Source: Bacteroidota bacterium (lineage in GTDB: Bacteria > Bacteroidota > Bacteroidia > JACCXN01). From it: a DNA stretch of 49,640 bases. Made by a program: the position numbers and the translations under genes. The DNA is taken from NCBI GenBank assembly GCA_013696965.1, contig JACCXN010000100.1, positions 1-49,640 of the forward strand, written 5' to 3'. Positions 22,518-40,526 of this stretch are shown in pieces (position 1 is the first letter of the stretch; every line of letters starts with the position of its first letter). Below the pieces are notes generated by a model, which saw only the letters and a list, made by a program, of their open reading frames with translations, was not told the origin of the DNA and did no database searches.

Positions 22518-23705
22518 TTAAACTGATTCTTCAATACTTTTTAAAATTACGGTACATGCTTCAATTATTTCTTTTTTAGTAATGCTAAGTGGAGGAGCAA
22601 TTCTCATGGAATTATCACAAAACAGGAACCAGTCAGTTATTATTCCTTTTTCAATGCATAAATCGATTACTTTTTTATTGAATTCAAAATCATCAAATTC
22701 AAGGGCTATCATAAGTCCTAAGGATCTGATGCTTTTTATTTTAGGATGAATTAATAACTCCCTGAACTGAATTTCTTTTTCTTTTACCTGTTGAATTAGT
22801 TCTTCTTCAATTAAAACTTCAAGACATGCTTTTGCTGCTGCGCAACTTACAGGATGGCCCCCAAAGGTGGTTATGTGACCAAGGACCGGGTTTTCAGAAA
22901 GGCTTTTCATTATTTCATTGGATGCTACAAAAGCCCCAATTGGCATTCCACCGCCCATTCCTTTGGCTATTGTTAATAAATCAGGAACAACATCAAATTG
23001 TTCAAAGGCGAATAAACTGCCGGTTCTTCCAAAACCTGTTTGAATTTCATCAAAAATCAACAATGTTCCTGTTTCATTGCATTTATTGCGTAGTTTTTTT
23101 AAAAAATCATTATTAGGAACTATAATTCCCGCTTCACCCTGTACCGGTTCAACAATAACACAAGCAGTATTGGTTGTGATAATTTCTAAATCAGCTGAAT
23201 TATTAAATTCCAGAAAACGAATTCCTGGTAAAAGAGGCCTGAAAGCATTTTTAAAAGTCTCATTTCCCATTACGCTTAAAGCACCTTGGGTACTACCATG
23301 GTAAGCATTTTTAAAAGCGATAATTTCACTTCGGCCAGTAAACCTTTTTGCAAGCTTTAATGCGCCTTCATTTGCTTCGCTTCCTGAATTTGTAAAGTAT
23401 ACTGTATTAAGTGAAAAAGGAAGCAGATTGGTAAGCATTTTAGCGTAAACAACCTGTGGAGATTGAACATACTCTCCATATACCATTAAGTATAGATATT
23501 TGTCCAATTGATCCTGTATTGCTGCCAGTACTTTTGGATGTCTGTGGCCAATGTTACTAACTGAAATTCCGGATATCAAATCCATGTATTTTTTACCCGA
23601 AAAATCTTCAAGGTAAAGACCTTGGGCTTTAACAATTTCAAGTCCAATTGGAGCCGGAGATGTTTGTGCCAAATGATTTAGAAACAATTGCCTTTGTGAA
23701 ACCAT
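22518..23705 (-). CDS. Class III PLP-dependent aminotransferase (ornithine/acetylornithine type)
   Basis: The start is ATG 23705 (MVSQRQLFL); an in-frame TTG two codons earlier is unlikely. The 395-residue enzyme has [16 protein letters not shown] (phosphate site), [17 protein letters not shown] and [15 protein letters not shown] with the Schiff-base Lys. This group transfers amino groups from omega positions (ornithine, acetylornithine, 4-aminobutyrate, lysine), and the exact substrate cannot be set from motifs. It is the only ArgD-like gene in the window, but it lies far from the arginine-like cluster at 36443. It may follow the transketolase/VWA gene series in the same direction, 127 bases downstream. 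Confidence 0.88.
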
Positions 23706-23832
23706 TTGCAAAAGTATATTTAATAATCAAAAAGGGATATATAAAGCCTGATATTATTGCAGTTAAACCAGGTGAATAAAAGTTAAACAAAATTAAATGA
23801 ATTTTTATTCCTGTAGTTTTGTTAACAAGCAA

Positions 23833-24531: not shown

Positions 24532-25488
24532 TTAGATTTTTCTTTTTATGACCTTTTCAACCGCTTCAACAATTTTTTCTGTGCTTAAGCCATATTTCTC
24601 CATTAATTCATCAGGAGTTCCGCTTTCTCCGAAACTATCATTAACAGCCACCATTTCTAGGGGAGAAGGGAAATTTCTACCTAGTAATTGAGCAATACTA
24701 TCTCCAAGTCCACCATTCATTTGATGTTCTTCAGCGGATACAACACATTTTGTTTTCCTTACCGAATTCAAAATAGCTTCATTATCCAAAGGTTTAATTG
24801 TATGGATGTTAATTACTTCTGCACTAATACCTTTTGATTCAAGTATTTCAGCTGCCTGAAGTGCTTTCCAAACCAAATGCCCTGTTGCAAAGATGCTTAC
24901 ATCAGTACCTTGATTTAATACTATTGCTTTACCAATAATAAACTCCTGATCCAAGGGCATAAAAACCGGTACTTTTGGTCTGCCGAAACGAAGATAAACA
25001 GGACCTTCATGATCAGCAATAGCAAGCGTTGCAGCTTTAGTTTGGTTATAATCACAAGGATTAATAACAGTCATGTGAGGAAGCATTTTCATAAGTCCTA
25101 AATCCTCAAGGATTTGATGAGTTGCTCCATCCTCACCTAATGTGAGTCCAGCATGAGAAGCGCATATTTTTACATTTTTACCAGAGTAAGCAATGGACTG
25201 TCGTATTTGATCGTATACCCTACCTGTAGAAAAATTTGCAAAAGTTCCGGTAAAAGGAATTTTTCCCCCAATAGTAAGTCCTGCTGCCATGCTCATCATA
25301 TTGGCCTCAGCAATTCCAACTTGAAAAAACCTATCAGGAAATTCTTTTTCAAATGCATCCATTTTAAGTGATCCGGTAAGATCTGCACAAAGCGCCACAA
25401 CATTTGGGTTTTTTCTGCCAAGTTCAAGCAATCCCGCTCCAAACCCTGAACGTGTATCCTTTTCTTCAGTATAAGTGTATTTTTTCAT
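24532..25488 (-). CDS. Transketolase, C-terminal subunit
   Basis: The 318-residue protein covers the pyrimidine-binding and C-terminal domains of transketolase. [14 protein letters not shown] opens it; CADLTGS and [16 protein letters not shown] hold the catalytic Glu that activates thiamine diphosphate, and [12 protein letters not shown] follows. In Bacteroidota transketolase is commonly encoded as two genes. Here the N-terminal half lies upstream in the same direction but is separated by a 467-codon VWA gene. Together the halves would transfer two-carbon units in the non-oxidative pentose phosphate pathway. A 1-deoxyxylulose-5-phosphate synthase role is less likely given the two-gene format. 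Confidence 0.9.
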
Positions 25489-25566
25489 TGTAATTTTTAC
25501 TTTTATTTAAATCGTGAAACGTAATAATGTATTGGCAAATAACAGTCTAAATATTTTCAATAATGT

Positions 25567-26970
25567 TTACAATTGAACAGAAATAGAACCACCTGGTTCC
25601 ATTTTAAAAGATCGTTCAGAAGTATAAATGGATTCTTTTGCGTTTATGGAACGGTAAATAATGCGGTAACTTCCTGGTTGAAGTGTTATGTTTTCCCTTG
25701 ATTTTGTTTCATCAAGGTTGTAGATCCATTTTAACCCTGAATTATCCTCAAGGTAAATGCTTGCAAAACCAATTGAGGGCAATACAACTGAGGCAATTCC
25801 AGGCTGAGGAATTTCAATTGTTGTTGTGTGACTTTGTTTAATTTCGATGTCACTCACATAAATACGTGGAAGAGTTAAAACCTCCAAATCATATTTTCCA
25901 GTAAGATATTTCTGTAATTTGTTTGTTTCCTGTATGTTAATTGTTTCCATTTTGCCATTTAACCTTACAATTGCTTTTAAATTTTTATAATCTGTGTATC
26001 CGCTAACCTTAAGGGATAAACTTCCTTGTGGTGTACTACTTATAATGGTATTGTGTTTACCCTGAATTAATTTGATGTTTTCTTTTTCAACAGTGGGTAG
26101 GGTGTAAACAATCATTTTATAGCTGTATTCATGTTCAATAATGAGTGTATCAGGATTTCCTTTATGATTAAGCGAATGAACATAATTGTATTTTATCTTT
26201 CCTGTTGCATTGTTGTATAAGGCCATTACAACATTTGTTTCGGTAGGATTATTTCTATCATCAAGAAGATTTACTTGTGCTGTAGTTGCATTTACAGCCT
26301 CATCAATTACAGTTTTAAGCACTTTTGTAAAAGTTTCTTCATTTTCGGTGTCATAATATTTTCCCACACATTCAAATTCTTTCATAATCTCAGGACCTAG
26401 GCCCATTCCAATTATAAAAGGCTTTAAAAATACACCTTTTTGATAAAGTGCAAGTGTTACAGCACATGGATTACCTTCACATTCTTCAATTCCATCTGTA
26501 ATTAGTATAATAATATTTTTACAAGAACTGCATTGAGGGAAATCATTGGCTGATTGTCCCAGTGAATAAGCAATTGGAGTGGTTCCCTTTGGTACTATTT
26601 CCATTAATTTTGCTTTTATTTTTATATGGTTGGATGCTGCAAAGGGTACTTCCAAATGGCTGTCTTTGCAATCTTTTGTATAACTTGATTTGCCATTGGG
26701 TTGGTTACCATAAACTCTTAAGGCAATTTCAACATTGTTAACATGCTTTAAACTGTCAACCATTTGGATAAGCAATTTTTTAGCACTGTCTATTTTTTTT
26801 CCCGTTTGCCAATAAGAAAGCATACTTTGAGAAGCATCAAAAATAAACAGGATTCTTACTTTTTCAGCAGCAGGAGCAGTAATAGCAATTGCTTCAGAAC
26901 CATCAATGGCAGTACCCATCTTTAAAAAAAAGACCAAACTTAAAAAGATGTATTTCAAATTAGATAGCAA
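25567..26970 (-). CDS. Exported VWA-domain protein
   Basis: A 467-residue protein probably starting at a TTG (26970), which gives a signal-like N-terminus (LKYIFLSLVFFLK). The VWA domain spans about 38-230: MIDAS motif D45-A-S47-Q-S49, the Thr in PKGTTPIAYSL and the Asp in ILITDGIEEC. Paired cysteines (CKDC-type and CSSCK) are scattered in it. The C-terminal 230 residues form repeated beta-sandwich-like segments resembling PEGA or Ig-like modules. It is probably periplasmic or surface-located and binds a protein through the metal site. It sits between the two halves of transketolase with no evident functional link. Confidence 0.82.
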   Translation of the reverse strand: MLSNLKYIFLSLVFFLKMGTAIDGSEAIAITAPAAEKVRILFIFDASQSMLSYWQTGKKIDSAKKLLIQMVDSLKHVNNVEIALRVYGNQPNGKSSYTKDCKDSHLEVPFAASNHIKIKAKLMEIVPKGTTPIAYSLGQSANDFPQCSSCKNIIILITDGIEECEGNPCAVTLALYQKGVFLKPFIIGMGLGPEIMKEFECVGKYYDTENEETFTKVLKTVIDEAVNATTAQVNLLDDRNNPTETNVVMALYNNATGKIKYNYVHSLNHKGNPDTLIIEHEYSYKMIVYTLPTVEKENIKLIQGKHNTIISSTPQGSLSLKVSGYTDYKNLKAIVRLNGKMETINIQETNKLQKYLTGKYDLEVLTLPRIYVSDIEIKQSHTTTIEIPQPGIASVVLPSIGFASIYLEDNSGLKWIYNLDETKSRENITLQPGSYRIIYRSINAKESIYTSERSFKMEPGGSISVQL

Positions 26971-27076
26971 GTGTAATTCTTTTAATAAAAATCAAATCTC
27001 AAATTATTTACAACAAATGGCTAAAATTGGCATCAGCAAATAAGCCATCAATAAACCAAATCTGCAATTATCAATT

Positions 27077-27925
27077 TTAATAATCTCCCAAGGTTTCTTT
27101 TAATTGAGATAAGGCATTAGCAAGTTGTTCATTATTAGGTGGAATACCATGCCATTTATGACTTCCCATCATAAAATCAACTCCATAACCCATTTCGGTT
27201 TTCATTAAAATCATAACTGGTTTGCTTTTTCCTGTTTTTTCCTGAGCTAACTTTAGGGTACTGATAACAAGTTCTATATCATTTCCATTTGCATTTTCAA
27301 GCACATCCCAACCAAAGGCCTCCCACTTGGCTTTTAAGTCTCCCAGGTTTAATACGTCATTGGTATCACCATCAATTTGGCGTCCATTAACATCAATGCT
27401 AACAATTAAGTTATCAACTTTATTAGCAGAGGCATACATTGCAGCTTCCCATATTTGTCCCTCTTGCAATTCACCATCTCCTAAAAGAGCATAAACAAGC
27501 CTGTTGTCCTTGTTCAATTTTTTTGACAAAGATGCACCAATTGCAACGGATAAGCCTTGTCCAAGGGAACCAGAGGCTATTCTTATTCCTGGTAATCCTT
27601 CCTCAGTAGCAGGATGGCCTTGAAGACGAGAATTTAGCTTTCTAAAAGTGGAAAGTTCTTTTACATTAAAATAACCCGAACGGGCCAAAACGCTATACCA
27701 AACTGCGGAAATATGGCCGTTGGAGAGAAAAAACAAATCTTCTCCATGTCCATCCATAGAAAATTTTTCAGGGTTATGTTTTAAAATTTTAAAATAAAGG
27801 GCTGTAAAAAATTCAGAACAACCCAATGAACCTCCTGGATGTCCCGATTGAACTGCATGTACCATTCTTAGTACATCTCTTTTTACCTGGGATGAAATTT
27901 TTTCTAATTCTTGTGTTGAAGACAT
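27077..27925 (-). CDS. Transketolase, N-terminal subunit
   Basis: At 282 residues this is the thiamine-diphosphate-binding half. GHPGGSLGCSEF near 28-39 carries the active-site His, and GDGELQEGQIWEAAMYA followed by IVSIDVNGRQIDGD is the GDG...N metal-binding motif. HKWHGIPPN is near the end. The length matches other N-terminal transketolase subunits. It is the first gene of the downstream minus-strand series (VWA protein, C-terminal subunit, beta-barrel). A TATTTTTG box at 27965-27958 (minus strand) may be its -7 element. Confidence 0.92.
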   Translation of the reverse strand: MSSTQELEKISSQVKRDVLRMVHAVQSGHPGGSLGCSEFFTALYFKILKHNPEKFSMDGHGEDLFFLSNGHISAVWYSVLARSGYFNVKELSTFRKLNSRLQGHPATEEGLPGIRIASGSLGQGLSVAIGASLSKKLNKDNRLVYALLGDGELQEGQIWEAAMYASANKVDNLIVSIDVNGRQIDGDTNDVLNLGDLKAKWEAFGWDVLENANGNDIELVISTLKLAQEKTGKSKPVMILMKTEMGYGVDFMMGSHKWHGIPPNNEQLANALSQLKETLGDY

Positions 27926-35893: not shown

Positions 35894-36442
35894 GGATAAT
35901 TGCATTTCTCTTAATATTTGCATCCTTAATTCTACTTTTTTAAAGCTGGCTCATAGCTTCTTTTGTTTTTTTACCATTTAAATGTGTAATAAAAGGATTA
36001 TTTCTAGTGGAATAAATTTATTTATCTTCCTTTTAATTCTTAGCAAATTTTTATTTTCCTTTTCACTTTCATACTAAAGCTGCTGCAATTGACAATTGTA
36101 TGGAGTTTTTGCTATTAAATCCTTTTCTTAAGGTTAATTTGAATTGCCACAAAGCTTAAACTGGGCATAAAAATAAACAAAGGCTTAGGCTTATCCTTTT
36201 CTAAAAAAAAAATCTTCCATCAGTTTTTTTATTATTTAATCTTTAAAGTTTTTCACCCTTTTCATTCTTAATATAAAGAAAAAATTTATGATTTTCGATC
36301 ATGCATTATTTCTATTTTCTATTTAATTTTAAATAAACGGAAAAAAATACCTGAAAAAACTGAAGGGAATTTATAATTCATAATTATGTTGAATTGAAAT
36401 GCACTTAGGAATGGTATCAATAACCAATATAAAAAATAAATT
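35894..36442. other. 549-base gene-free AT-rich stretch
   Basis: No open frame, tRNA, repeat unit or strong terminator is visible. It has many T and A runs. A weak pairing TAAGGAT...ATCCTTA close to the yebC stop may act as its terminator. I did not find an exact TAnnTTTG box for the following arginine-like cluster. It could be the remains of a lost gene, a long leader, or plain spacer. Confidence 0.5.
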
Positions 36443-37714
36443 ATGAGAAAAAAGGTAGTATTAGCATTTAGTGGAGGAATAAGTTCCTGCTATTGCGCTA
36501 AATTTTTGATTGAAACAAAAAAGCTGGAAGTTCATGCTGTAACAGTAAATACAGGAAATTTCACGCAGGAGGAATTAAAAGAAATTGAAAAAAAAGCATT
36601 GCTATTAGGGGCAAAAGATCATACTGTTTTAGAAGAAACAAATAAATATTATGAATCATGCATCCGGTACTTGATTTTTGGAAATTTACTTAAAAACAAT
36701 GCTTATCCCTTGTCTTTAAGCTCACAAAGGGTTTTTGAGGCTATTTCAGTGGCAGGTTATGCTAAAACCATACATGCGGATTTTTTGGCCCATGGCTGCA
36801 AAGGCAAAGGCAATGACCAGGTTAGATTCGATTTAATATTTAACACCCTTGTGCCTGGAATAGAAATATTAACTCCTTTAACGGAAAAATTAATTTCAAG
36901 GAAAGAAGAAATAATGTTTTTGCATTCTTTTAACTTTAATGTTGAGGGATCTAAAAACAAGTATTTTGTGAATAAGGGATTATGGGGAACTTTAATTGTT
37001 GGGAAAGAAACATTAACATCAAAAGAGAATCGTCCAGAAACTGCATTTCCAAACGAATTAACCGATACTAATGCTCAGGATATTATCTTAACATTTGAAA
37101 AAGGGGAGATAAAGGCAATTAATGGAGTGTTTTTCAATTCACCTGTTGAAGCAATTTATGAACTCGATATGCTTGCAACTCCTTTTGGAATTGGAAGAAA
37201 TATACATGTAGGAGAATCAATAATGGGGATTAAAGGTAGAATTGCTTTTGAAGGGGGAGCACCATTGGTAATAATAAAAGCCCATAACATGCTGGAGAAA
37301 CATGTGCTCGCTAAATGGCAATTGTATTGGAAGGAGCAATTATCGGCCTGGTATGGAAATTTATTGCATGAGGGGCAATTTCTTGATCCAGTGATGAGAA
37401 ATATTGAAAGATTTTTAGAGGACACACAAAAAAATGTGAGCGGAGAGGTTTATGTTTCTCTTGCTCCACAACGCTTTACTGTTACAGGAGTGAAATCACC
37501 TTTTGATTTAATGTCAGATAAATTCGGGAGTTTTGACCAGATGGAAAGCACCTGGACAAGTGATGATGTGAAGGGATTTTCAAAAATAACAGGAAATCAT
37601 GTCTCCATTTGGCATAAGGTAAATGGAATTAAAATGAGTATAGAAGGTCAATTAAATCAATCAAATGAATCAACTGTTCAAATAAATAATCATTCAAGCC
37701 TGCTTGAGGACTAA
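36443..37714 (+). CDS. argG: Argininosuccinate synthase-like protein (ArgG family, altered active site)
   Basis: A full-length 423-residue ArgG homologue: AHG...GNDQVRFD, VNKGLWG, LGIKGR-like MGIKGRIAFEGGAPL and YWKEQLSAWYGNLLHEGQFLDPVMRN are well kept. The catalytic loops are not. The P-loop is A8-FSGGISSC16 where the family has AFSGGLDTS, and the aspartate/citrulline loop is HGCKGKGNDQVRF (117-129) with Lys120 in place of the conserved Thr. GLWGTLIVGKET has Leu184 where the usual Bacteroidota form has Ser. No stop or frameshift is present. Synthase activity is therefore doubtful; it may be a pseudoenzyme or have a new substrate. argB-like starts 10 bases downstream. Confidence 0.85.
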   Translation: MRKKVVLAFSGGISSCYCAKFLIETKKLEVHAVTVNTGNFTQEELKEIEKKALLLGAKDHTVLEETNKYYESCIRYLIFGNLLKNNAYPLSLSSQRVFEAISVAGYAKTIHADFLAHGCKGKGNDQVRFDLIFNTLVPGIEILTPLTEKLISRKEEIMFLHSFNFNVEGSKNKYFVNKGLWGTLIVGKETLTSKENRPETAFPNELTDTNAQDIILTFEKGEIKAINGVFFNSPVEAIYELDMLATPFGIGRNIHVGESIMGIKGRIAFEGGAPLVIIKAHNMLEKHVLAKWQLYWKEQLSAWYGNLLHEGQFLDPVMRNIERFLEDTQKNVSGEVYVSLAPQRFTVTGVKSPFDLMSDKFGSFDQMESTWTSDDVKGFSKITGNHVSIWHKVNGIKMSIEGQLNQSNESTVQINNHSSLLED

Positions 37715-37724
37715 AAAAAAATCA

Positions 37725-38510
37725 ATGAAAAAGAAAAAATTATATATAATCGCAATAGGTGGGAATATTCTCGATGATCAAGACAGACTCAATAATTTTC
37801 TATTGGATTTTTCACAAATAAGGACAAATAAGATTCTTGTTCATGAAGGTGGAGTTATGGTGAATGAAATTTGTAAAAAGTTAGGTGTGGATCCAGAAAA
37901 AAGTCATGGAAAAAAATCACTGGATCAAAATGCTTCTAAAATTAGTGCTATGGTTTATGCAGGGCTAATAAATAAAAGTATTGTTGCTAGGCTTCAAGCA
38001 AATCAATGCAATGCAATAGGCTTGTCTGGAGTGGATGCAAATATAATTCCCGCGGTTAAAATAGAAGAGAATAAAGAAGGATATGTGGATAGTGAAACCA
38101 TAAATGTTTCTGTTATTGCTGCACTTATTGAAAATTGTTTAATTCCTGTAATTGCCCCAATTTCCCATGATGGTAATGGTAATTTTAAAAATCTTGATCC
38201 TGACAATGTTGCATCTGAACTGGCCGTTGCTTTCACTAATTTATATGATGTTCATCTAATTTATTGTTTTGAAAAGAAAGGGATTTTAAAGGATATTTCA
38301 GACAATAATTCTGTTATTCCCAAAATCACTCTTGAAAATTACAATCATTTGAAAAAGGATGGAGTAATAGCAGAGGGAATGACCCCAAAGCTAGATAAGG
38401 CTTTTAGTGCATTAAAAAGGAAAGTACTATCTGTTCGAATTTGTTCCGTTGATAAATTACTGAATACTGTTAACTCTCCGGAGAGGGTTGGAACGGAACT
38501 TTATGTTTAA
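37725..38510 (+). CDS. argB: Acetylglutamate kinase-like protein (ArgB family, altered active site)
   Basis: The start is ATG 37725 (MKKKKLY), 10 bases after argG-like; the longer frame overlaps that gene. The 261-residue amino acid kinase fold is clear: AMVYAGLINKSIVARLQA, NAIGLSGVDANII, SELAVAFTNLYDVHLIYCFEKKGIL, GVIAEGMTPKLD. The N-terminal motif is IIAIGGN, so the catalytic Lys (K8 of E. coli NAGK, KxGG) is Ala10. The glycine loop is HEGG (40-43) in place of HGGG. The GRRIT/GLRVT segment that binds acetylglutamate is GKKSL (62-66). The ATP-side Lys in GMTPK and the Asp in NLDPDNVA remain. Kinase activity as in normal ArgB is unlikely. Confidence 0.82.
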   Translation: MKKKKLYIIAIGGNILDDQDRLNNFLLDFSQIRTNKILVHEGGVMVNEICKKLGVDPEKSHGKKSLDQNASKISAMVYAGLINKSIVARLQANQCNAIGLSGVDANIIPAVKIEENKEGYVDSETINVSVIAALIENCLIPVIAPISHDGNGNFKNLDPDNVASELAVAFTNLYDVHLIYCFEKKGILKDISDNNSVIPKITLENYNHLKKDGVIAEGMTPKLDKAFSALKRKVLSVRICSVDKLLNTVNSPERVGTELYV

Positions 38511-38567
38511 AAACGGTTTATACAATATAAAATGTATTTTTCTAATCCATTAAAAACATAAAAGATG

Positions 38568-38575
38568 TAGTTTTG
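38568..38575 (+). promoter_or_regulatory. -7 box for proC inside the cluster
   Basis: TAGTTTTG matches TAnnTTTG exactly and lies 21 bases before the proC ATG (38597), overlapping the longer possible open frame. It suggests that proC and the downstream gene can be expressed apart from the two upstream genes. Confidence 0.4.
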
Positions 38576-38596
38576 CCGAAAAAAACAGATTTAAAA

Positions 38597-39400
38597 ATGA
38601 CTACAAAAAACATAGCTATTATAGGAGCTGGCAATATTGGAATTTCTTTGGCAAAAGGGCTTGTTTCTTCTGGAAAATTTAATGCAAATCATATTGCTCT
38701 TGTAAAAAGAAATACAGCAACAATTGCGGAATTCACCAAAATGGGATATTTGGTAAGTAATAACATTGAGCATGCAATTTCAAAAGCGGATATAATTGTA
38801 CTTGCCGTTTTGCCTCAGCAGTTGGATACAATGTTAAAGGAGTTAAAAGATTACACTGTTCCTGAAAAACACCTTATTGTTTCGGTTGTTTCAGGTGCTC
38901 CAATATCAGGAATTTCTGGCTTTTTAAATCCGGAAATTCAGATTATAAGGGCAATGCCAAACACGGCTATAGCAATAGGCGAATCAATGACTTGTATTGC
39001 TTCTGGTAATGCCAATGCTGAGAATATGGCTTATGTAAAGGCAATGTTTAATGCAGTAGGGGAAACAATTGAAATAAAGGAAGAATTAATGACATCCGCA
39101 ACTGCATTATGTGCATGTGGAATAGCATTTTTCTTAAGGGCAATCAGGGCAGCATCTCAAGGAGGTATCGAACTGGGTTTTCATGCTGATGAAGCGCTTA
39201 AAATGGCTACACAAACTGCAAAGGGAGCAGCTTCATTACTGAAAATTTCGGGTGGGCATCCGGAAAATGAAATTGATAAAGTTACCTCGCCTAAAGGATG
39301 TACAATTGCAGGATTGAATGAGATGGAATACAAAGGTTTTAGTGCAGCAATGATAAAAGGAATAAAAGTATCAGCAAAGAAAGCAGGAGAATTGTATTAG
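38597..39400 (+). CDS. proC: Pyrroline-5-carboxylate reductase
   Basis: The start is ATG 38597 (MTTKNIAIIG); a TTG 24 bases upstream overlaps the promoter box. The 267-residue enzyme has a Rossmann motif GAGNIGISLAKGL, AVLPQQ, RAMPNTAIAIGESMTC, ACGIAFFLRAIRAASQGGIE and the P5C reductase signature VTSPKGCTIAGLNEMEYKG, which fits the recalled PROSITE pattern throughout. It reduces P5C to proline with NAD(P)H. Unlike its three neighbours it shows no active-site loss. It is 86 bases after argB-like and 25 bases before the M20 gene. Confidence 0.93.
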   Translation: MTTKNIAIIGAGNIGISLAKGLVSSGKFNANHIALVKRNTATIAEFTKMGYLVSNNIEHAISKADIIVLAVLPQQLDTMLKELKDYTVPEKHLIVSVVSGAPISGISGFLNPEIQIIRAMPNTAIAIGESMTCIASGNANAENMAYVKAMFNAVGETIEIKEELMTSATALCACGIAFFLRAIRAASQGGIELGFHADEALKMATQTAKGAASLLKISGGHPENEIDKVTSPKGCTIAGLNEMEYKGFSAAMIKGIKVSAKKAGELY

Positions 39401-39425
39401 GATAAATAATTTAAAAAAAAAATAA

Positions 39426-40526
39426 ATGGAGAACGTGTTGAAACAAGAGAAAGGGATACCCATAATTAATTACACAATGGATGAATTATACCGCGAATCC
39501 TTAAACTTGTTAAAAGAACTTATTGCGGTGGAGTCTTTTAGCAAACAAGAAGATAAATCAGCAGAAATTTTAAGTGATTTTTTTAGTAGGAAAAGAATTT
39601 CACATCAACGCAAGTCTAATAATTTATGGGCTTTTAATAGAAATTTCAATCCCAAATTACCTACTATTCTCTTAAATGCTCACCATGATACAATAAGACC
39701 CGCATTTGGATGGAGTATAAATCCATTTTTTCCCCTTATTGAAAATGGAAAAATTTATGGCCTTGGGAGCAACAATGCAGGAGCTGCTTTGGTTTCTCTA
39801 ATCACTACTTTTTTATATTTTAACGAATATGAAAATCTTAAGTACAATTTAGTATTTGCAGCAACTTCGGAAGTTGAAATTTCTGGCAACAATGGAATGA
39901 AACAGATATTTTCTAAATTAGGTGAAATTGATTTTGCAATAATAGGAGAACCAACCAAAATGCAGTTAATTATTGCTGAAAAAGCCTTACTTGTACTTGA
40001 ATGTGTTGCCCATACAAAACCAGGATTTTCCATACAGGAAAATGAAGGAAATGCAATTGAAATCGCAATGAATGATATTGCCTGGTTTAGAAATTTTAAG
40101 CATTCTAACCTTTTAAGTCCATTAAAAATAGTACTTACCAATATAGAAACAACAAATACAGGTGATAATGTTTCTAAATCATGTAAATTCACAGTAGAGG
40201 TAAGAACAGGGGAGACTTTTGACATAGATGAATTGCTTGAACTTATTGGCAAAAACATTTTTTCAGAAATAAAGGTGCTATCTTCCGGGTTAAATTCAGA
40301 TATTATTGATAAAAGTCATCCTTTAATTAGTGCTGGAACAGCATTGGGAAGAAATATTCTTTCTTCACGCGGTACCAGGGACAAAGCATTAATTGATGTT
40401 CCTTCCTTAATCCTTGGACCAGGAGATCCAGCTCGATCATATACCTGTGATGAATTCGTTTACCTCTATGAAATAAACGAGGGAATAAGCATGTATATAG
40501 CTATGTTAAGTAAGCTTTTACAATAA
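39426..40526 (+). CDS. argE: M20 family hydrolase-like protein (ArgE type, metal site lost)
   Basis: A 366-residue homologue of the Bacteroidota ArgE deacetylase: LLNAHHDTIRPA, GKIYGLGSN, IIGEPTKMQL, AGTALGR, LGPGDPARS and CDEFVY are present. Several key positions are changed. The bridging metal Asp (usual GLGSNDAGG) is Asn117. The catalytic Glu of the EE pair is Val150 (TSEVEIS for AEEEIS). The dimer-interface His is Phe201. The final metal His before TADEF is Tyr339 (RSYTCDEF). H86, D88, E151 and E175 remain. With two metal ligands and the general base gone, deacetylase activity is very doubtful, yet the reading frame is intact. It is the last gene of the cluster. Confidence 0.83.
   Translation: MENVLKQEKGIPIINYTMDELYRESLNLLKELIAVESFSKQEDKSAEILSDFFSRKRISHQRKSNNLWAFNRNFNPKLPTILLNAHHDTIRPAFGWSINPFFPLIENGKIYGLGSNNAGAALVSLITTFLYFNEYENLKYNLVFAATSEVEISGNNGMKQIFSKLGEIDFAIIGEPTKMQLIIAEKALLVLECVAHTKPGFSIQENEGNAIEIAMNDIAWFRNFKHSNLLSPLKIVLTNIETTNTGDNVSKSCKFTVEVRTGETFDIDELLELIGKNIFSEIKVLSSGLNSDIIDKSHPLISAGTALGRNILSSRGTRDKALIDVPSLILGPGDPARSYTCDEFVYLYEINEGISMYIAMLSKLLQ

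Follow-up and report, generated by a model that had tools for sequence, protein, structure and literature searches.

A relic arginine operon with three active-site-altered arg homologues around an intact proC in a Bacteroidota genome

The window analysed here is a stretch of 49,640 nucleotides from contig JACCXN010000100.1 of the Bacteroidota assembly GCA_013696965.1. Between positions 36443 and 40526 it carries four intact open reading frames, all on the + strand and without internal stops, listed at 36443-37714, 37704-38510, 38573-39400 and 39426-40526. The original prediction described them as four co-directional, full-length genes resembling argG, argB, proC and argE, and both the open frames and the family assignments held when the translations were compared with NCBIfam and Pfam profiles, in which equivalog cut-offs were passed only by ProC and, narrowly, by the ArgB homologue. 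The three arg homologues are marked below with a prime. The first gene, argG' (36443-37714), encodes an argininosuccinate-synthase homologue of 423 aa, recognized by profile score, alignment and AlphaFold model. As listed, it overlaps argB' by 11 nt; the listed start of argB' is a TTG at 37704, and a likelier one is the ATG at 37725, 11 nt past the argG' stop, which leaves a homologue of N-acetyl(succinyl)glutamate kinase at 37725-38510 (profile score and alignment). The listed start of proC is also a TTG (38573) with a likelier ATG at 38597, and its product (38597-39400) was identified as pyrroline-5-carboxylate reductase by profile score, invariant columns and phylogenetic tree. The last gene, argE' (39426-40526), encodes a homologue of the M20 acetyl(succinyl)ornithine/citrulline deacylases, as judged from alignment and an AlphaFold model. 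The intergenic leader 5' of argG' (549 bases, 35894-36442) is long and very A+T-rich, and a search of it against Rfam gave no family match.

To measure how far the four proteins depart from their families, we counted differences at columns that were at least 97% invariant among 102 Bacteroidota ArgG homologues, and at near-invariant columns in sets of 38 ArgB, 38 ArgE and 16 ProC homologues taken from operon loci. ArgG' differed at 23 of 119 columns, ArgB' at 13 of 45 and ArgE' at 29 of 77, and the worst of the other homologues in each set differed at 12, 4 and 8 columns, respectively. ProC served as the control: it kept 50 of its 51 columns (the worst other ProC differed at four), scored 220.7 bits against a cut-off of 196.75 and has the features of a pyrroline-5-carboxylate reductase. 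The active-site changes in the three arg homologues are thus real and far outside the range of any homologue compared, and the claim that catalytic residues were replaced in these three genes with the ProC signature kept was borne out.

In ArgG', which at 246.7 bits fell below every ArgG equivalog cut-off (334 for the profile concerned), the P-loop SGGLDTS has become SGGISSC, with the Asp and Thr replaced. The aspartate-site Thr is a Lys (T120K), in a segment reading HGCKGKGNDQVRF where the family has HGxTGxGNDQVRF, and R147T, S175F and S184L were further changes, the last two at the serines of the citrulline/ATP site. The protein therefore lacks the SGGxDT/S P-loop, the HGxTGxGNDQVRF motif and the citrulline/ATP serines of argininosuccinate synthase. 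Yet it is a full-length, two-domain protein with both the N- and C-terminal Pfam domains, and its AlphaFold model (mean pLDDT 81) matched solved ArgG structures, best of all 4xfj, with a TM of 0.80. Compared with ArgG of known structure (4xfj/4u7j, 2nz2), most structural invariant columns were kept and the differences lay at the P-loop Asp and Thr, the aspartate-site Thr, S175, S184 and R147. Human ASS tolerates substitution least at residues that include D16, T17, T119 and S180, and its variants T119I, S180N and S180I had little or no activity (PMC13289927); the equivalents in the family numbering of ArgG' are D14, T15, T120 and S175. This mapping was made by hand from motif alignment, with the list of ligand-binding and variant-sensitive residues taken from the same paper (PMC13289927). 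Changes were found at 16 of 32 active-site-equivalent columns and at 7 of 87 elsewhere (p=1.8e-6), and the bias persisted in a conservative set from which family-permitted and uncertain positions were dropped (11/27 against 7/87, p=2e-4). One correction applies to a few of the altered residues of ArgG', which are not losses: S119C, A122K and G365D have the same letters at the same positions in ArgG of Mycobacterium thermoresistibile (4u7j).

Two side observations concern the same protein. Its C-terminal extension of about 25 aa (37640-37714), missing in most homologues, was predicted to be disordered (pLDDT <50). In alignment to 4u7j, the ArgG proteins of Bacteroidota generally seem to be without the canonical citrulline contacts made in the human enzyme by Glu270 and Tyr282, with Gly and Phe in their place, which may be linked to the acylated-ornithine version of the pathway; in ArgG' the positions concerned are 257, 258 and 269.

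For ArgB', the key residues are those of acetylglutamate kinase, namely the catalytic Lys8, the GGG loop, Arg66, Asp162 and Lys217. Although its score of 155.5 bits was slightly over the TIGR00761 cut-off (151.3), three of these have changed: the equivalent of Lys8 is Ala17 (K17A), the GGG loop reads EGG (G48E) and the equivalent of Arg66 is Lys71 (R71K), in addition to N165D and substitutions in the substrate loops. The equivalents of D162 and K217 are present as D167 and K229, and some residual chemistry might conceivably persist. ArgE' scored only 87 bits against a cut-off of 217.6. The M20 ArgE/DapE site consists of dinuclear metal ligands H, D, E, E and H with a Glu as general base. Here the bridging Asp (D117N), the general base (E150V), one metal-ligand His (H339Y) and the dimer-domain His (H201F) have been replaced, as well as H246, N247 and T316 (H246G, N247D, T316G), though H86, D88, E151 and E175 remain, and judging from these residues some chemistry or metal binding is conceivable. 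The AlphaFold model of ArgE' (mean pLDDT 81) was closest to the Bacteroides ArgE 3ct9 among solved structures (TM 0.82, 37% identity in the structure alignment), an M20 deacylase that differs from ArgE' in having the general base, bridging Asp, metal His and dimer-domain His.

The order and strand of the four genes point to their origin. In Pontibacter harenae the operon runs argG-argC-argD-argF-argB-proC-argE-argH, and the cluster has the same order and strand minus argC, argD and argF in the argG-argB gap and argH after argE. No remnant of these four genes was detectable when the P. harenae operon proteins were searched against the window with tblastn, including at the argG'/argB' junction (37704-37740, + strand), the site of the ancestral argC-argD-argF. 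ProC is 61-62% and ArgG 57-58% identical to the P. harenae counterparts, but argG, argB and argE are altered here at invariant active-site residues. In the trees, ProC was the sister of P. harenae ProC (support 1.0) and ArgB' grouped in a Pontibacter/Adhaeribacter clade (support 0.85). The tip branches of ArgG', ArgB' and ArgE' were 0.68, 1.19 and 1.18, against medians of 0.10, 0.36 and 0.30. The cluster is the leftover of an arginine operon of the Cytophagales type (Cytophagales/Hymenobacteraceae) from which argC, argD, argF and argH have been cleanly removed. Orthologues with the same substitutions, for which the original prediction had proposed a search, were found neither among the three genomes of its order, nor in 395 genomes of the class, nor in a contig scan over 84,980 species; the closest identities in these searches were 60% for ArgG' and 49% for ArgE'.

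The absence of argC, argF and argH from the cluster, as originally described, extends to the whole genome (3.86 Mb, 106 contigs, completeness 100%). Profile searches gave only weak, off-family matches below cut-off for argH and argC, and nothing above cut-off for proA, proB and trpB. The carbamoyltransferase family has a single gene of 315 aa, which we read as aspartate carbamoyltransferase because there is exactly one such gene per genome; with this assignment no ornithine carbamoyltransferase (OTC/argF) was found. An intact arg operon elsewhere, another proposed check, was not found either: argG and argB are single-copy, and argC, argH and OTC are missing. The supposed argD-like gene on the other strand is indeed a class III aminotransferase (22518-23711, - strand), but its 363 bits are below the argD cut-off of 410. 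It is also below the ornithine-aminotransferase and GABA-transaminase cut-offs, and both of the organism's relatives in the order have genes with similar scores.

This gene content suggests that the organism is an arginine auxotroph. Arginine taken up from outside would be converted to ornithine by an arginase-family enzyme, genes for which are present, and ornithine to P5C by the ornithine aminotransferase encoded elsewhere in the genome (675 bits); ProC would then reduce P5C to proline. Proline synthesis from glutamate would be impossible in this genome, and proline is plausibly made from arginine or ornithine via P5C. Such a route would explain why proC alone is intact. The link of the cluster to proline, for which the original prediction had considered a pathway on a different substrate, is better explained by a continued need for proC, because proA and proB are missing and an ornithine aminotransferase is present; that P5C-linked pathway, like the complex of the altered proteins that was also suggested, is speculative. 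More generally, argH, argC, proA, proB and trpB were not above cut-off in any of the three genomes of this small order. The order as a whole seems to be auxotrophic for a wide range of amino acids, and this suggests a protein-feeding or host-dependent life.

The lost pathway and the long branches would fit plain neutral pseudogenisation under way, or perhaps an artefact of assembly. Several results make both of these highly improbable. We evolved each frame under an AT-biased neutral model until it reached the observed fraction of amino-acid change, which was measured on the invariant columns and taken as the gene-wide neutral level, in 400 runs per gene. The expectation was 7.4 stops in argG', 5.7 in argB' and 11.0 in argE', about 24 in total, and none was observed, in agreement with the earlier remark that stops and frameshifts are missing; not one of the 400 runs for any of the three genes ended without a stop. 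The codon-position GC pattern was normal, ProC on the same contig is nearly unchanged at its invariant columns, and changes spread over three genes cannot be sequencing error.

The position of the substitutions is also informative. Novel residues were commonest at the most conserved columns and rarer at moderately conserved ones (for example, 27/76 against 9/57 in ArgE'). The active-site enrichment seen in ArgG' was not significant in ArgE' (7/12 against 22/65, p=0.10) or ArgB' (4/12 against 9/33, p=0.48), perhaps because these two proteins offer few invariant columns, most of them close to the site. In ArgE', two of 65 variable hydrophobic columns were broken, whereas missense changes accepted freely would be expected to break 10.3 (p=0.003). 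The corresponding values were 3 against 5.4 in ArgG' (p=0.18) and 7 against 6.2 in ArgB', whose hydrophobic columns showed no protection beyond the level of free missense change and whose breaks were concentrated in two substrate loops. The structure models indicate compatibility with the fold and are not proof of folding, because the underlying alignments include normal homologues. The missing stops, the positions of the changes, the hydrophobic-core counts and the models, taken together, are strong evidence that these are not simple neutral pseudogenes, and they favor selection for intact, folded proteins.

Taken alone, the stop, position, core and model tests are compatible both with a new function and with selection that acts against misfolding or polarity. 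A serious rival, though one to which we give the smaller chance by a clear measure, is that the three proteins are functionless and co-expressed with proC during a slow loss of the pathway, and that selection removes truncated or misfolding variants for their toxicity or their polar effect on proC. Active-site changes would then be free and may even stabilize the fold, so that no new function is needed to account for the open frames, the retained folds or the bias toward active sites; the missense pattern of ArgB' matches free change. The broad auxotrophy, with argC, argH, OTC, proA, proB and trpB not found, is in line with such a slow loss. Likewise, argG, argB, proC and argE were undetectable in both remaining genomes of the order, but these are just 81-86% complete. 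Polarity cannot explain the retention of argE', which lies downstream of proC and is unprotected by it, and this gene has the most changes and no stops where about 11 were expected. Moreover, many changes imply a long time, and bacterial deletion bias usually clears useless genes; yet these three were not deleted, while argC, argD, argF and argH were cleanly removed.

The remodelled sites might instead catalyse new ligase, kinase or hydrolase reactions on ornithine-, P5C- or proline-related substrates. The ArgG scaffold has been repurposed before: nitrile synthetase ArtA (PDB 9lei/9leh) is an argininosuccinate-synthetase-like, active ATP-dependent enzyme (PMC13060819). ArtA thus shows an ArgG fold with another job, and ArgG' superposes on it with a TM of about 0.74, but ArtA is active, and the two have no close sequence relation. 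The pocket of ArgG' has gained definite new residues (K120, K122, F175 and L184), the counterparts of D162 and K217 are still present in ArgB', and ArgE' retains four metal-site residues. However, any chemistry on these folds would need general residues that are gone here, including the P-loop Asp, the NAGK Lys8, the M20 base, the bridging Asp and a metal His, and we consider new catalysis improbable.

Our preferred reading, to which we give a probability of roughly 0.58, is that argG', argB' and argE' encode remnants that are dead as catalysts, whose folds selection maintains and which are retained, probably as pseudoenzymes, beside a working ProC. The lineage would have lost arginine synthesis, and its operon would have been reduced to argG'-argB'-proC-argE'. 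To judge from the replaced residues, the three proteins would be dead for their old reactions, and purifying selection has probably kept them whole and folded; their most likely, though putative, roles are in binding, regulation or scaffolding, with expression alongside ProC. The original prediction offered repurposed pseudoenzymes and the first stage of pathway loss as alternatives. The preferred reading combines them, since the pathway has been lost and no pseudogene-like decay is seen; the loss is beyond a first stage, however, because argC, argD, argF and argH are gone and the three survivors are long-branched. A more specific version, in which three enzymes of one operon became pseudoenzymes that sense or regulate the flow of arginine, ornithine or proline after the pathway was lost, for example by controlling ProC and binding ligands related to arginine, is a tentative suggestion that we hold to be rather unlikely.

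Enzyme scaffolds with catalysis lost or co-opted are familiar from delta-crystallin/argininosuccinate lyase and antizyme inhibitor. Single pseudoenzymes are common; unlike those cases, the present one seems to involve three members of one operon, and three whole proteins from one operon, with four genes excised and a useful neighbor intact, would amount to a natural experiment of a rare kind. Such a case would show whether scaffolds outlive their pathway through another use or merely because misfolding is costly. No relevant case of arg-pathway pseudoenzymes was found in the literature searched. Annotation pipelines would probably label these genes argG, argB and argE, and a partial arginine pathway would then be scored as present. 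Elsewhere in the window, within 24532-27925 on the - strand, transketolase is split into an N-terminal gene (27077-27925) and a C-terminal gene (24532-25488), and a VWA-domain gene of 467 aa (25567-26970) sits between the two halves.
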